From a virus, in IMG/VR virus record IMGVR_UViG_3300046003_002208, positions 1 to 20,866 of that record: a stretch of 20,866 bases of DNA; one strand, written 5' to 3'. Position numbers and translations under genes: made by a program. The stretch's first letter is position 1; every line of letters starts with the position of its first letter. The notes beneath the pieces were generated by a model, which ran no database searches, was not told the DNA's origin, and was given only the letters and a program-made list of their open reading frames with translations. Positions 14,105 to 20,865 of the stretch are shown one piece after another.

Positions 14105-14130
14105 AATAAGGGGGCTAATACCCCCTTATT
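14105..14130 (-). terminator. Intrinsic terminator closing the tail tip operon
   Basis: A perfect 10-base inverted repeat, AATAAGGGGG and CCCCCTTATT, is separated by the 6-base loop CTAATA. On the minus strand it overlaps the last base of the tip protein stop codon and is followed by an AT-rich stretch. The A/T ends make it capable of acting on both strands. It separates the tail tip operon from the adhesin unit that follows. Confidence 0.8.
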
Positions 14131-16028
14131 TAGATGCCACCGTAGTCGTTAGGGTTCCAAACAAACCCTGGGCTACTTGATGAGCTTAGGTCACTATAAC
14201 TGGTGCCAAGTCCAGTTCGTGCTTTGAAGTAGAATGTTCCTTCAATAGGTAAGCTGACAATGTCAGTAACTGTGCTGCCAGGTGTAAAGCCGCCAGTTGA
14301 ACTATAGTCATTGGCAAAGTAAACAAACCCACCTGTTGATGTTGTTGAATACCACCATTGTAATTCATCAGGTGCTGAGCTGGTAGGACTGATAGTGCTG
14401 CTTAATGTAAAGCTAGGTGTAGTTGTAGAGATAATAGCTGGGATAGGAGCACTTGGTGCTGGCAGTGTTGCCGAGCCACCAAATGTAGGAATGCCACTTC
14501 CAGGAGTGTCCGCTGAATCTACTAATATCTCATCAGCGTAGATAGTTGAGTCGTATTCTAGTGCAGTAACTTCAACTGTGATAGAACCTTCTTCACCTTC
14601 AATCTCACGAAGTTTAGATATGCGGAATAGCTTGTCAGTAAATCCATATACATTATTAGTGACCTTGACAACATCGCCAGCTTCACACTGAATAGCCGAA
14701 TAGTCAGCACGGAATGTAATGATCTTATCCACACGACTTTGCTTTAGTTCGATTAGACCGATACGGGCTGCGTGTAGTGCGTTGTTGACCATTTCTAATC
14801 TCATACTGAGTGTGTTAGGTGGCTCTAGATCATTCATTTCACTTGGGTCAATGGCACCTTTGAAGTAGTCGTTCTGATCACGGATCTTACGGCTGGCAAA
14901 CTCAACTTCCAATTGATTGTATAGATCTTCTAAGTTGGTTGCTGTGATGCCCACTTCACCTAGTATGTTGTCATCATTGAACTCGAATGCGTTTTCAAGT
15001 TCTGTTTCAGTGGCAGCACGATTGTTCAACAGTTTCCACTGACCTTCACTGTAGTCAAATGTAGTCCAGGCTGATGCACCTTGACTGATCTTTTCGATAC
15101 TATTCTTTACAGTGTCACCTGTAGAAATAACACCATTGATTACATAACGAGCCTGTGTGCTGGTAGTGACGCCATCACTTTGAAACTGGTTAGGCGGGAT
15201 TTGATTGCTGTAATTGAATACACTAACCGTATTACTTGTGCTGATGCTGGTAGTGGTGTTGATCTGTTCAACAGGAATAGCTGCTCCGTATCGCTCCGAA
15301 GTCATGTAGTCATACCAAACAAGTGCTGGGTTGTTTAGTGTGTTGCTCAACTGAAATGTAATTTGTCCCAGTCCAGTTACGCCTTTCTCGCCATTGTAGT
15401 CGATTTGAACAACAGCAAACACAATATCATTAAGTTGATAATTTACATCACTTTCACCCAATAGTGTTCTAGCATTTTCAGTATTGCCTGTTGCCTGTGG
15501 TGGAAAGATCTGATCATAGCTGTTAGTGGATCCGTTATAGACACGCATACGAATAAGCCCATCGTAGTTGGTGTTGGTTGAACCTAATCCGTTTTGATCA
15601 ATACCACTGCGAACAATGTGACTTTCACCAGCATCGGGATCAAATACTAACTTCTGATCGTTCCAGTAGATGTCGCCGACTGAGAATACGCCTGTTTGTG
15701 TTTGCTCACTGATAGCCAACACATAGGTCATTGTTTTGTTTTCGTTTGATATACGAGCATCAGTCACTGTGCCCTTGGTATTGACTGTGCCATAGACTAC
15801 AGGTATTTTGTTGTTAGTTGCGGGTGGGAACTGAATACGCACACCTGGATCCTGTGCTGTTCCACCAGCACCTCCAGTTAGACCCAACAGTCTTGAAGTG
15901 GCCAAAGCCAATCCCACTGCCACAACTGAAGTAACGAATGCAACACCTGCTGCGCCCAATACCGCAGCACCGCCGATTCCTACGACTGCTGTAACAATGT
16001 AGCTTGCCGCAATAGTAAAGACAGCCAT
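14130..16028 (-). CDS. Tail tip/central hub protein, gpJ-like with gpI-like N-terminus
   Basis: A 632-residue protein that probably forms the central hub of the tail tip. Residues about 8-50 form two hydrophobic Ala/Gly/Val segments (AVVGIGGAAVLGAAGVAF), as in the membrane-like region of lambda gpI. The rest follows gpJ-type order. IPVVYGTVNTKGTVTDARIS lies near residue 75, NPALVWYDYMTSERYGAAIP near 231 (family form NPAwvlyDllt..RYG), and ARIGLIELKQSRVDKIITF followed by CEAGDVVKVTNNVYGF lies around 430-470. Residues about 545-632 look like a fibronectin III-type repeat. It is about half the length of lambda gpJ, so receptor binding is probably handled by the separate adhesins downstream. AAGGAATAATT precedes the ATG, and the stop codon lies in a terminator hairpin. 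Confidence 0.85.
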   Translation of the reverse strand: MAVFTIAASYIVTAVVGIGGAAVLGAAGVAFVTSVVAVGLALATSRLLGLTGGAGGTAQDPGVRIQFPPATNNKIPVVYGTVNTKGTVTDARISNENKTMTYVLAISEQTQTGVFSVGDIYWNDQKLVFDPDAGESHIVRSGIDQNGLGSTNTNYDGLIRMRVYNGSTNSYDQIFPPQATGNTENARTLLGESDVNYQLNDIVFAVVQIDYNGEKGVTGLGQITFQLSNTLNNPALVWYDYMTSERYGAAIPVEQINTTTSISTSNTVSVFNYSNQIPPNQFQSDGVTTSTQARYVINGVISTGDTVKNSIEKISQGASAWTTFDYSEGQWKLLNNRAATETELENAFEFNDDNILGEVGITATNLEDLYNQLEVEFASRKIRDQNDYFKGAIDPSEMNDLEPPNTLSMRLEMVNNALHAARIGLIELKQSRVDKIITFRADYSAIQCEAGDVVKVTNNVYGFTDKLFRISKLREIEGEEGSITVEVTALEYDSTIYADEILVDSADTPGSGIPTFGGSATLPAPSAPIPAIISTTTPSFTLSSTISPTSSAPDELQWWYSTTSTGGFVYFANDYSSTGGFTPGSTVTDIVSLPIEGTFYFKARTGLGTSYSDLSSSSSPGFVWNPNDYGGI

Positions 16029-16030
16029 AA

Positions 16031-16483
16031 TTATTCCTTAATATAAGTTCGTTCTGTGCATCTAAAGCCACGACGCTCTAGATCACAGGCTTCAGTTGAT
16101 GTCATCATACTGGTAAAATAAACATTGATCTTACCCTGCTGTTTGAGTTCATCACCTTTTAGGCAGTATTGCTTGAACAATCTACCGCCTATTGTTGATT
16201 TTCTTTTTTCGGGAACCACATACCAAATCAATTCACGCAGTTGAGTTATCTTAGGATTCCACATGTTGGGTTCTTTAATGGCAATTAGTATTCCCACTGG
16301 TTCTTCATCATCAAATGCCAACCACACATAACCATTTTGTAGGAATGTGAATGCTAACTTGCCCAGGTGCTCAACATCTCTGCTGGCGTCTAATGCTTGA
16401 TTATAACTGGTGTCAGTGAGGAAACGCTGCATCAACTTGATCATATGTCTTGCATCCATAAGTGTATGTGCCTGCTTGATCAT
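16031..16483 (-). CDS. GNAT-type N-acetyltransferase in the tail tip cassette
   Basis: The 150 residues follow the GNAT order: an N-terminal helix pair with basic residues, strands around YVWLAFDDEEPVGILIAI (beta 2-3, residues about 52-69), then RELIWYVVPEKRKSTIGGRL. The last stretch corresponds to motif A, where acetyl-CoA pyrophosphate binds (R/Q-x-x-G-x-G/A; here RKSTIGG). A terminal Glu-rich helix and strand include ACDLERRGFRCTERTY, matching the late GNAT helix with an aromatic C-terminal strand. In lambda the gene between L and I/J is K, a peptidase, so this enzyme takes its place. The substrate is unknown; it could be a virion protein or a host target. The start overlaps the gpL-like stop as ATGA. 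Confidence 0.72.
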   Translation of the reverse strand: MIKQAHTLMDARHMIKLMQRFLTDTSYNQALDASRDVEHLGKLAFTFLQNGYVWLAFDDEEPVGILIAIKEPNMWNPKITQLRELIWYVVPEKRKSTIGGRLFKQYCLKGDELKQQGKINVYFTSMMTSTEACDLERRGFRCTERTYIKE

Positions 16484-17127
16484 GCGCCGTCTCCACTGTT
16501 AAACACTGGTGTTGATCCGCCTGTCGGTGCCGGAGCTGAGTAAGGTTTGCCGAAGTCAAATTGACTGTCTGCCAATGCCTTCACACGATACATTCCTGTG
16601 TCACCCGGATACCAAAACTGTTGATCAGCGTCATTAGTTCTGCGTCCAGTGTACTTCTTTTCCATAATGGCGTGAATACTTGAACATTGAATACCAACAG
16701 TGTTGCTGGTTAACTTGTTGTCCTGATCCCAGTTTTCACTTAGATTATAATTGCTGATGTAGCCACTAAAGCGTAGATATACCTGTGTGGCATCATAGTT
16801 GCCTGTAGTGGGATCAAAGAATGCACGATAGATCTGTATCTTGCCACCTTTGATATTGCTGTTCAACACAATGCTCATATAGTTAGGACTACCATCATCT
16901 GGTGGCAATCCACTCAACTGAATAGCAATCTGATTGTTGGTTATCTTTAGGTCATCCTGCATTTCACTCATGCCCATAAAGTTGCCCAGCTGCGAATAGG
17001 TGTTGCCGTTATAGACAACAGGACTATAGGCGTTGCTGATATAGTAGGTAGTAGTGTTAATGGTTATGTCAATCAACAGACAGTGTTTAATGTCTGGATT
17101 TGATAACGCTGGGATACTTGTGGTCAT
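16480..17127 (-). CDS. Minor tail protein, gpL/DUF2163-like
   Basis: This 215-residue protein is likely part of the tail tip complex that closes the tube below the tape measure. The key evidence lies around residues 155-185: KKYTGRRTNDADQQFWYPGD and then TGMYRVKALAD...FDFGK. Many phage tail assembly proteins of the gpL/DUF2163 kind have a comparable GRRT..DQ..FPGDkGm segment near the C-terminus. In lambda-type gpL this region can bind an iron-sulfur cluster, but here the region contains no obvious four-cysteine set, so cluster binding is not supported. The last 25 residues are Pro/Gly/Ser rich. Overlaps of four bases with both neighbours suggest translational coupling. Confidence 0.7.
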   Translation of the reverse strand: MTTSIPALSNPDIKHCLLIDITINTTTYYISNAYSPVVYNGNTYSQLGNFMGMSEMQDDLKITNNQIAIQLSGLPPDDGSPNYMSIVLNSNIKGGKIQIYRAFFDPTTGNYDATQVYLRFSGYISNYNLSENWDQDNKLTSNTVGIQCSSIHAIMEKKYTGRRTNDADQQFWYPGDTGMYRVKALADSQFDFGKPYSAPAPTGGSTPVFNSGDGA

Positions 17128-17771
17128 ACGATTCTCTCAATCAGTTCGAAGTTGCCTGTGTATTGAACAAGTTGCATAGGCGTCAGTTGATAAGTTGGTA
17201 ATCCACTGACAACTACTCGCCAAGTGCAACTGTTGGCAACATCAAGTCCTTGACCTACTAGGTTAACACCTTCACTGGTTATGACATTTCTGTGCAGTGA
17301 AACATTAGTAGTAGTACTAGAACCTCGTGTGCAAGTTTCTGCCACTGTGTAAGGATAACGACTATTCTCTGGTTGAATGTAATCACCCTTGGCAAATATC
17401 ACTGTGCTGCTAGTCACTATTGGCAAGGTAGTCAACGTGAATGTATCTGTGCCCACTGCGTGGATTGTCATTGCTGCTAAGTTAGCGGTGCTTAAGCCCC
17501 CTTGATATGCAGTAATGTAATTCATGTTAGTTGTATTGCTAAGTTTGATTGTGTATTCTTCAACACGGTCACCACCGTCAATGACTTCAATCAGATCACG
17601 ACTGTCTGCCCATTTAAGGTAAGCTGGTGGTGTCACTGTAAACTTCCACGGCTGAGCACTGGCACGCTCTGCTGTCTTAATACGTTGGCTACGGCTGATT
17701 GTTTGACCCACAACACGACGGCGGTCGATCTCAATAACTTGTGCCTTGTCTATAATTGTCTGTAATGACAT
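17124..17771 (-). CDS. Minor tail protein directly after the tape measure (gpM position)
   Basis: A 215-residue protein lies between the tape measure and a gpL-like gene, where lambda encodes the distal tail protein gpM. It is mostly predicted beta structure, rich in Thr, Val and Ser. It starts with a basic stretch (EIDRRRVVGQTISRSQRIKT) that includes QTISRSQRI, a phrase I associate with minor tail proteins that begin by reorienting on the tube end. The C-terminus is YTGNFELIERIV. AGGAG precedes the ATG. It shares its first base with the tape measure stop and overlaps the next gene as ATGA. No Pfam family was recognised from sight. The role in the tail tip baseplate is inferred from position. 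Confidence 0.65.
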   Translation of the reverse strand: MSLQTIIDKAQVIEIDRRRVVGQTISRSQRIKTAERASAQPWKFTVTPPAYLKWADSRDLIEVIDGGDRVEEYTIKLSNTTNMNYITAYQGGLSTANLAAMTIHAVGTDTFTLTTLPIVTSSTVIFAKGDYIQPENSRYPYTVAETCTRGSSTTTNVSLHRNVITSEGVNLVGQGLDVANSCTWRVVVSGLPTYQLTPMQLVQYTGNFELIERIV

Positions 17772-19987
17772 TATCTGCTCCTAGTTGGTTGGCTTCTACG
17801 GCCCTGTTCTGTCACAGCATAGATGAAACTTGGATCCTTAGCAACCAAGCTACGGAAACTGCTGGCATCTACTGCCTGTATGTTATAGTTGACCACTGTC
17901 TGTCCGCCACCCATACTGCTTGAGTTTTGTCCACTGCCCTTCAATGCTGAGTTGCTGATTATCTTACCTGCTGATTGTGGCACAAACATTTCAGGACCAC
18001 GTTCGCCTACTATGATAGGTGTTGCACCCTGCACTGGACCACCGTTGGCCATACCGAACAAGCTGCCTAACGGTCCACCAATAGCAGCCACAATGGCACG
18101 GCGAACTGCGATACGGATTAGGTCAGCGATGATACTGTTGGCTAAGTCTTTGAAACTTAACTTGCCAGTTTGTGCAAATTTAACAAATGCATCTTCCATA
18201 CCGCCGGTAAAGTTTTCGAAACTGTCAGCTATCTGTTTTCCAGTGTCCATTGCATTGTTCTTGAAGTCTTCAAATGATTCCTTTAATGGATCAACACCCA
18301 CAACCACTTCAATTTGTTTTTGTGCAATGTTTTTATAACCATTTGCAATTGCTGTAAGTCCATCTGCAAGTTCTTGGGCACGCTCCGGTGTTAATCCATC
18401 TTCACCGGCAAATGATTCAGAGAATGCACGACCTGCTTCTAATGCTGCTTTACGAGCATTTTCTTGAATTTTGGCAATTTGTTTTTCTAATGGATTTAAT
18501 CCTGCTAAACCTTGTTCAAAATCTAAATTTACACGCTGGTCGTTTATTCCACGCAGAATATCACCCAACTGTGATTGACTTGAGATTTGACGATCAATTT
18601 CAGAGACAATTCTTTTTAATGTATCTTCTTGTTGTTGATATTCAAAATTTTGTTTTCTTGTTATCTCAAAGATATCTTGTTCGCTGGTCTTTAATCCTTC
18701 AAGTTCATCAATAGATTGTTGAATCAATACAAGTGTTTCTTTTTTGGCTGTGGCTTTTTTCGCTTCTAATGCGGCGATTTGATCACCATACTTCTTTTCA
18801 ATTTCTGCTGTGCCTTTGATCAATTCTTGTTCATATTCACTCTTACCTAATAATTCAACCTGCATGGTATAACGATCCATGTTGGCTTGACTTGCACGAC
18901 GATAACCAGCAGTCATATCATTGATAGTCTGCATTTCTTTAGCCAGTGCATCAGCAGCACGCTCAGCTTCTTTTCGACGTTGTTCTGCTTCACGCTTTAG
19001 ACGTTCTGGATCTGCTGCTCCGAATCCACCTGGTGCAGTTGCAGCACGATCAATGGCTTCTTGTGTTCTTCCTCTTGAAACACCAGCAGCAGGTGCCATT
19101 AGGCGACTCATTCTTTCTTCTTCAGTCTCTTGTCGTGTAATTAATGGAGTTCTCGGTTCAATGCCTAATAAACTACTCATGAATCCACGAAGACCTGGAC
19201 CAAGATAACTCTTTTGTCCTATATCTTCAAGTTTCTTTTCAATCCTATCTGCTTTTTCATAAGCAGTATCAATATCAAGTGCAAGTTGTCCAAAGAAACT
19301 TAATAATTTTCTTTCAAGACCATCACGCACACGATCAATAGCTTCGGCGTATTTGTCTAACTTTTGAATCTCAGCATCTTTAACAGGATCAGCAATGGCT
19401 TGTAGTTTAGTAAGATCAAGTTTAGTAATGTTCTTACCTAAAATATCCACTGCGGCAGCATATCTTTCACCGCTGAGATTGCCTGCTTGAAACTGTTTAG
19501 TTATATCGCGAAGTATTGCCTCAGTACTGCGAACTGCTCCGCCAGCATCAGTGACAAATACTCCTAATGTTCTAAAACTTTGTTGCAGTTTTTCATTACC
19601 ACCAGCAGCATCTTGCACATTCTGATTTAACTTAGCAGCAATTTGACCAAAATCATCAGCTTTACCGCCAGCTTCAATTACACTGGTTCTAAAGTTTAAC
19701 AGTGTTCCTTCCGCAATACCAGTTGCACCTGCGATGTCGCTGATGCTGGCAGCAAGATTGACTGCCTGTAGTCCCAATGCTGCAAACGCTCCGCCAGCGG
19801 CCCCAGCAGCCAAGCCAATAGGACCTAATTTGCTGAAGATGCCAGTTAGTGCATTGTTTAACGGACCAGTGCTGGCACCAAATTGAGCGACTTCATTGCT
19901 GAGATTTTCAATGCCCTTAGTAGCTTTGTCAATAGCAGCTTGTCCTTCTACCTTAAATCTTAATAAGAACTGTTCTATGGTTGCCAT
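17771..19987 (-). CDS. Tape measure protein, lambda gpH type
   Basis: At 738 residues this is the tape measure protein, which sets tail length and is delivered through the tube during infection. The N-terminus carries a hydrophobic Ala/Gly-rich segment (about residues 55-95, including PIGLAAGAAGGAFAAL). A long charged helical region spans roughly 330-560, with many Lys, Glu and Gln residues. About residues 590-643 match the lambda-type C-terminal domain (FAQTGKLSFKDLANSIIADL), followed by ANGGPVQGATPIIVGERGPE, typical of gpH-like proteins. It follows the chaperone pair, as expected. AAAGGA precedes the ATG. Its stop TAA overlaps the next start as TAATG. By the usual 1.5 angstrom per residue rule, the tail would be about 110 nm, if no processing occurs. 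Confidence 0.93.
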   Translation of the reverse strand: MATIEQFLLRFKVEGQAAIDKATKGIENLSNEVAQFGASTGPLNNALTGIFSKLGPIGLAAGAAGGAFAALGLQAVNLAASISDIAGATGIAEGTLLNFRTSVIEAGGKADDFGQIAAKLNQNVQDAAGGNEKLQQSFRTLGVFVTDAGGAVRSTEAILRDITKQFQAGNLSGERYAAAVDILGKNITKLDLTKLQAIADPVKDAEIQKLDKYAEAIDRVRDGLERKLLSFFGQLALDIDTAYEKADRIEKKLEDIGQKSYLGPGLRGFMSSLLGIEPRTPLITRQETEEERMSRLMAPAAGVSRGRTQEAIDRAATAPGGFGAADPERLKREAEQRRKEAERAADALAKEMQTINDMTAGYRRASQANMDRYTMQVELLGKSEYEQELIKGTAEIEKKYGDQIAALEAKKATAKKETLVLIQQSIDELEGLKTSEQDIFEITRKQNFEYQQQEDTLKRIVSEIDRQISSQSQLGDILRGINDQRVNLDFEQGLAGLNPLEKQIAKIQENARKAALEAGRAFSESFAGEDGLTPERAQELADGLTAIANGYKNIAQKQIEVVVGVDPLKESFEDFKNNAMDTGKQIADSFENFTGGMEDAFVKFAQTGKLSFKDLANSIIADLIRIAVRRAIVAAIGGPLGSLFGMANGGPVQGATPIIVGERGPEMFVPQSAGKIISNSALKGSGQNSSSMGGGQTVVNYNIQAVDASSFRSLVAKDPSFIYAVTEQGRRSQPTRSR

Positions 19988-19992
19988 AACCG

Positions 19993-20262
19993 TTATCCTT
20001 TACTTTGTTTCTTTACCCACTCTTGAATATATTCTTCAGTGGGCTTTGTCATACCGTCTCGAGCCTGGGGGCTATAACCTTCATCTAGTCTTCGGGCATA
20101 AGGATAAGTGGCTTCAATTGTGTCCTTGTTAAGAAAGGTATTGCGTTTAGCGTTGCCTGTCTTAAATGGAGTAATCTTTCGAAAGTGATTAAACCCTTCC
20201 TTAGCCATGGCTTCAGCAGTGATCTCTTTTTTGATCTGCTGCAACCTTAGATATATACTCAT
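19993..20262 (-). CDS. Small HK97 gp10-like tail completion or neck protein
   Basis: This 89-residue protein has the compact pattern of the HK97 gp10 family: a helical N-terminus, then TPFKTGNAKRNT (family form PvdTGnLr), a short strand, YPYARRLDEGYSP (family form YA..vE.G) and DGMTKPT close to the C-terminus (family form QPFlrPA). Members of this family act at the head-tail or tail-completion interface. The gene starts inside the ATGA overlap with the frameshifted chaperone and ends just before the tape measure gene. That is odd, because gp10-like genes normally precede the major tail protein gene. It is shorter than the usual 110-140 residues. A different small tail protein with a convergent motif is possible. 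Confidence 0.6.
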   Translation of the reverse strand: MSIYLRLQQIKKEITAEAMAKEGFNHFRKITPFKTGNAKRNTFLNKDTIEATYPYARRLDEGYSPQARDGMTKPTEEYIQEWVKKQSKG

Positions 20263-20791
20263 CCTTTTGTCCTTTTTACCAGTTCTTCAAGATCTTCAGT
20301 TTTGTAATTGTTTTCATTTTGAGGATCTTTACAATAATTTTCCCAAGTAGTCATCACATCCATAACCATGACATCGAATGTTGTGGCATGTTCTACTATC
20401 TCACTAGGTAGTTTGCGATAGTGTCTTGCCAGCGTTCCGATTGTTATTAGTTTTGATGTGTCCCAGCTTCCTTCACTGACTTCTTGGTCCCGGACTTTCC
20501 CAGGTTGTCATTGATCCTCACTAAAACTGCCAGTGTAAGATCTAGTGGCAACACTTCATCATCGGAAATGGCTTTGCTGCCATCTTCTTTGAGAATAATT
20601 TTACGGATTGTTGCCATTAATTGATCGCTGCTAGATTCCTTTTGATATCTGTAGAAATCAAAGTAGGTGTCAAGATCAATGTGATCCTTCATCCAGAATT
20701 TAACAGCCTCGCCATAGTTTTCAACGATGTCTGCATCGTCAATGGCTATTTCAAGTAGTTGGGGTTTCTTTACGAAATTTGTGATGTTCAT
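20259..20791 (-). CDS. Tail assembly chaperone fusion by -1 frameshift, lambda gpGT-like
   Basis: If ribosomes slip back one base on GGGAAAG (20495-20501), the product continues from residue 99 for 78 more codons, giving 177 residues. The added part begins VRDQEVSEGSWDTSKL, includes LARHYRKLPSEIVEH, and ends ELVKRTKG. It has no stop codon until a TGA at 20259-20261, which overlaps the ATG of the next gene as ATGA. Without the shift, about 185 bases would be an unexplained gap in an otherwise gapless operon. The open frame, slippery site, length and overlap all agree. In lambda the T part recruits the tail tube protein to the G-coated tape measure. An AGGA lies 13 bases upstream of the heptamer and may act as an internal stimulatory site. 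I saw no convincing downstream stem-loop. Confidence 0.85.
20447..20791 (-). CDS. Tail assembly chaperone, lambda gpG-like (unshifted product)
   Basis: This 114-residue acidic, helical protein lies two genes upstream of the tape measure gene, where lambda has gpG. Proteins of this class coat the tape measure protein during tail tube assembly and are absent from the finished virion. The start ATG follows AAGGAAGAAAG, a good ribosome site, and overlaps the upstream stop as ATGA. Codons 98-99 (GGA AAG) sit inside the heptamer GGGAAAG, the same slippery sequence lambda uses in G-GT. The unshifted frame ends only 15 codons later with the tail SGTKKSVKEAGTHQN. No sequence family was recognised; the call rests on position and on the frameshift arrangement, which is very characteristic. 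Confidence 0.82.
   Translation of the reverse strand: MNITNFVKKPQLLEIAIDDADIVENYGEAVKFWMKDHIDLDTYFDFYRYQKESSSDQLMATIRKIILKEDGSKAISDDEVLPLDLTLAVLVRINDNLGKSGTKKSVKEAGTHQN
20495..20501 (-). promoter_or_regulatory. -1 programmed frameshift site GGGAAAG
   Basis: On the minus strand the heptamer reads G GGA AAG in the zero frame, the X XXY YYZ pattern that allows tandem P- and A-site slippage. It is identical to the lambda G-GT slippery sequence. It lies at codons 98-99 of the chaperone gene, with 15 zero-frame codons left before the stop and 78 open codons in the -1 frame. Confidence 0.85.
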
Positions 20792-20865
20792 CTTTCTTCC
20801 TTTTTATCTTTAATGATGTGTAGAACTGCAAGTGCAAACTTGAGTCTACTGTTAATCTTGTCATC
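20788..20865 (-). CDS. C-terminus of an unidentified gene upstream of the tail chaperone (partial)
   Basis: An open frame enters from the right edge and codes for 25 residues, starting DDKINSRLKF and ending IIKDKKEER, before a TGA. That stop overlaps the ATG of the next gene as ATGA, the junction type used throughout this window. In lambda-type tails this place holds a minor or major tail protein gene or a short gene next to one. Too little is visible to name it. A second frame is also open across this stretch, so the assignment rests mainly on the stop/start overlap. Confidence 0.45.
   Translation of the reverse strand, partial: DDKINSRLKFALAVLHIIKDKKEER

Follow-up and report, generated by a model that had tools for sequence, protein, structure and literature searches.

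A probable tail assembly chaperone with a predicted lambda G/GT-type −1 frameshift in a divergent family of uncultivated phages

The window analysed here is the whole 20,866-nucleotide stretch of IMG/VR virus record IMGVR_UViG_3300046003_002208. Towards its end, on the minus strand, lies an ORF of 114 amino acids plus stop (20447–20791) that we call G, the predicted short form of a tail assembly chaperone. Codons 97–99 of G read CTG GGA AAG and contain the slippery heptamer G GGA AAG (20501–20495, minus strand), which the original prediction had placed in frame at codons 98–99. The −1 frame continues from 20495 to 20259 on the same strand as an extension, T, of 78 residues. Its TGA stop (20261–20259) overlaps the ATG of the next gene (20262–20260) as ATGA (20259–20262, minus strand). 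A −1 slip would give a G–T fusion of 177 amino acids, and the length, the 78 open codons and the ATGA overlap all agree with what had been predicted. T itself had been assigned to 20259–20446; this stretch is real as the portion past the G stop, but the coding part in the −1 frame begins at 20495. A further TGA in the −1 frame (20508–20510, minus strand), four codons upstream of the slip, bounds the T frame on its other side.

GGGAAAG occurs twice in the window, against 1.9 occurrences expected by chance. The heptamer alone is not unusual there; it gains weight from its register, from the open frame that follows and from conservation. No stop interrupts the −1 frame in the 60 codons that follow its overlap with G, where the other two frames have five and six. 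The first ATG, GTG or TTG of T in the window comes only at codon 43, with ATG codons from there on. In these genomes, T is likely to be overlooked or cut short by gene callers.

Two other genes of the window deserve mention. Directly upstream of G, a small ORF on the minus strand (20788–20865) is cut by the contig end so that only its 3′ end is seen, and its TGA overlaps the start of G as ATGA; small ORFs of about 60 amino acids occupy the same place in two distant relatives (L195:2763–2960 and L196:2471–2656). A GNAT acetyltransferase-like gene (16031–16483, minus strand; phrog_1249, 6.6e-12) sits inside the tail module, flanked by tail genes at 16480–17127 and 14130–16028.

The next large gene downstream of G and T encodes a lambda-type tape measure protein (17771–19987, minus strand; Tape_meas_lam_C, 1.1e-21; phrog_339, 1.7e-27). 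The chaperone locus is close to it and not directly adjacent as in lambda, because a gene of 89 amino acids (19993–20262, minus strand) intervenes. This small gene was found in 23 of the 24 related records tested. In the window it has weak similarity to tail-completion/Neck1 families, and its relatives resemble the C-terminal part of these families (phrog_169, 1.2e-11 in L196). Such a gene would not usually be expected between T and the tape measure.

A real frameshift could serve a protein that is not a tail assembly chaperone, a reading that we consider very unlikely. It draws on the family searches with the window's own G or T, which gave no significant match, and on profile comparisons with lambda G/T, HK97 gp13/gp14 and the Kolga chaperones, which found no sequence homology; low sequence similarity is usual among the tail assembly chaperones of this group (PMC5009743). 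Against it stand the frameshift layout itself and the position of G shortly before a lambda-type tape measure. Weak matches to Phage_TAC_13 were also obtained in 8 of 21 G family members (best E 0.0088). Structure prediction with AlphaFold2 gave a model of G with a mean pLDDT of 79 and a less certain, helical domain for T (75). Among 350,542 PDB chains the top match to the predicted G fold was 2ob9, the HK97 tail assembly chaperone, at a probability of 0.87, an E value of 0.09, which is not significant, and a TM score of 0.41. The best match in BFVD was A0A6J5LPC3, a UniProt homologue already named tail assembly chaperone, which is 49% identical to G over 114 columns (TM 0.87).

We searched for relatives by scanning IMG/VR contigs from G, which recovered loci between 100% and about 26% identical, and 21 relatives were aligned in G. 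Scans anchored on T only, which avoid selection for the G side, yielded many more. All loci were pooled and duplicates were dropped by identical 400-nucleotide context, with related contigs still counted separately; 91 representatives are left below about 85% similarity. This gave 126 distinct T-bearing sites; a contig end cuts one of them, and the other 125 could be assessed. The 177-amino-acid fusion had no match among annotated phages by tblastn, and genome-contig scans likewise gave none. Methylophilaceae phage P19250A has tape measure and J relatives in common with the window, and we saw no G/T relative among its ORFs. One 36.6-kb contig (G008, the contig of L010; 1–8000, 27000–36627) has a chaperone/tape-measure module close to either end, and the two modules differ; the assembly may have gone full circle through a genome of roughly 28 kb and continued into a variant strain.

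In six pairwise comparisons, T read in the −1 frame had pN/pS values of 0.08–0.31 and no stops, where the highest value, 0.31, belongs to the closest pair with only nine differences. The other frames in the same comparisons had values of 0.47–4.6 and four to nine stops. Judged from these sequences, protein-like evolution of T is limited to the −1 frame. Conserved residues (W11, G20, A23, Y26, LPS 29–31, D41 and WE 51–52) start soon after the slip. T is an overlapping −1 ORF without a start of its own that is conserved as protein, as in lambda G/GT. The expectation that the −1 frame would be conserved at the protein level in related phages was borne out by the aligned relatives and by 122 of the 125 assessable sites, and stops that break the extension were seen in none of the relatives examined.

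An in-register slippery heptamer is present at these 122 sites: GGGAAAG in 114, GGGAAAA in 5, GGGAAAC in 2 and GGGGGGC in 1. Elsewhere in these genes the codons that compose it are seldom chosen among their synonyms (Leu codons ending in G, 23%; GGA, 18%; AAG, 31%), and conservation of the amino acids alone therefore does not explain why the heptamer is retained.

Stimulators of slippage are less uniform. The AGGA of the window (20515–20518, minus strand) lies exactly 13 nucleotides upstream of the heptamer, as predicted, and is a possible Shine–Dalgarno-like stimulator. It is found only in the window, L002 and L003, the other relatives tested having a weak form or none, and in this role would be confined to the closest relatives (96–100% identical in G). 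Among the relatives tested there was no conserved Shine–Dalgarno-like site about 10–14 nucleotides upstream of the heptamer of the kind known from dnaX, and we rejected dnaX-like stimulation as a general feature because AGGA is lineage-limited. Downstream RNA structure gave no consistent signal across relatives, and an Rfam search returned no match. The sole strong case is a site with the GGGAAAA variant (L011:2842–3392), where the predicted downstream structure reaches −20.2 kcal/mol (z −2.6) and perhaps compensates for the altered heptamer. On the sequence evidence, no conserved stimulator assists slippage at the heptamer.

The three assessable sites without the heptamer (L096, L098 and L199, from two samples) form one lineage. 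At each of them we found a tandem arrangement with no slippery site (L096:1–926, L098:3001–3926 and L199:3001–3917): G1, of about 122 amino acids without T, and G2–T, an uninterrupted in-frame fusion of 181–184 amino acids made of a second G copy and T. Loss of the heptamer with the gene kept, a pattern that would have counted against the prediction, was thus seen only where G and T are fused in frame. We regard this coincidence as a natural experiment that supports the frameshift reading. All parts of the arrangement are under purifying selection between L096 and L098 (pN/pS 0.16–0.20). In the tree, which has a midpoint root only and is limited in resolution by its 99 columns, G1 clusters with G2 (SH-aLRT 94, not starred) and the T domains of the lineage form one clade (support 100); we infer the direction of change. 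The pattern fits one duplication, followed by fusion of G to T and loss of the slip site. It is likely, in our assessment, that tandem duplication took the place of frameshifting once within one chaperone family, leaving G alone and an in-frame G–T fusion whose ratio translation initiation would then determine. A duplicated chaperone that replaces a frameshift was not reported in the literature that we searched, and such a report may still exist.

These observations also bear on the idea that T is an independent small gene with its own start and no frameshift. Start codons do occur in the T frame, as ATG from codon 43 in the window and at codons 15–27 in some relatives. They are scattered, however (first at codons 15 to 48 among relatives), and none is conserved, whereas the conserved T protein (VKNQ...W...IG.LAK.Y) begins at the slip, ahead of any conserved start codon. 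A stop 3–7 codons upstream of the slip bounds the T frame in most relatives, the heptamer is kept despite its rare synonymous codons, and T is joined in frame to G in the lineage that lacks the heptamer. We consider an independent T very unlikely. The chance that a sequencing error or a recent frameshift mutation split one gene into a pseudogene is close to nil: a single-base indel would likewise give two overlapping ORFs, but the two-frame layout recurs at about 120 distinct sites on contigs from many samples and is under purifying selection, and this conservation rules the explanation out.

We put at roughly 95% the probability that a −1 frameshift of the lambda G/GT type lets the locus produce two forms of a tail assembly chaperone, where we infer the slippage, its rate and the chaperone role. 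The lambda-like arrangement originally proposed was upheld by gene position, slippery site, conservation of the −1 frame and weak fold similarity. Most ribosomes would stop at 20447 and release G of 114 amino acids, and a minority would shift back by one base at G GGA AAG, enter the T frame and make the 177-amino-acid G–T. By analogy with lambda, the slip rate would set the ratio of major G to minor G–T, with G coating the tape measure protein and T recruiting the major tail protein. On this evidence a large, divergent family of uncultivated phages joins the known users of G/GT frameshifting, and plain GGGAAAG persists, with no conserved stimulator, in G proteins as little as about 26% identical. 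If the duplication is real, its lineage and the frameshifting relatives form a matched pair with which to ask what makes phages retain frameshifting. The long form is made in another way in the lineage that lacks the slip site, which argues that selection maintains both forms and not frameshifting itself.

The locus is a predicted, sequence-divergent example of a frameshift type that is already known. In lambda, roughly 30 G are made per GT, G binds along the tape measure and T recruits the tail protein; G_GGA_AAG is highly shift-prone in Escherichia coli, and lambda-type G–T frameshifting is widespread (PMC5009743). The window has the same heptamer and register, the same layout of a short and a long chaperone and the same position upstream of a lambda-type tape measure. 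It differs from lambda in its shorter T, in the 89-amino-acid gene before the tape measure and in having no detectable sequence homology. HK97 gp13/gp14 (2ob9) likewise combines a −1 frameshift with an additional gene that separates chaperone from tape measure and is a moron in HK97, although the fold match is weak and sequence homology is lacking. A0A6J5LPC3, from an uncultured Caudovirales phage, is a predicted database protein that belongs to the same G family as the window. Chaperones that do without frameshifting, as the L096/L098/L199 lineage seems to, have precedents: some Microbacterium EA phages appear to express both chaperone ORFs separately (PMC7302621), and T4-like phages have a mechanism other than frameshifting, according to the title of Vladimirov 2022 (in the reference list of PMC12846349). 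The duplication lineage pairs a copy of G with an in-frame G–T, probably from a duplicated G, and may differ from these precedents in that respect.
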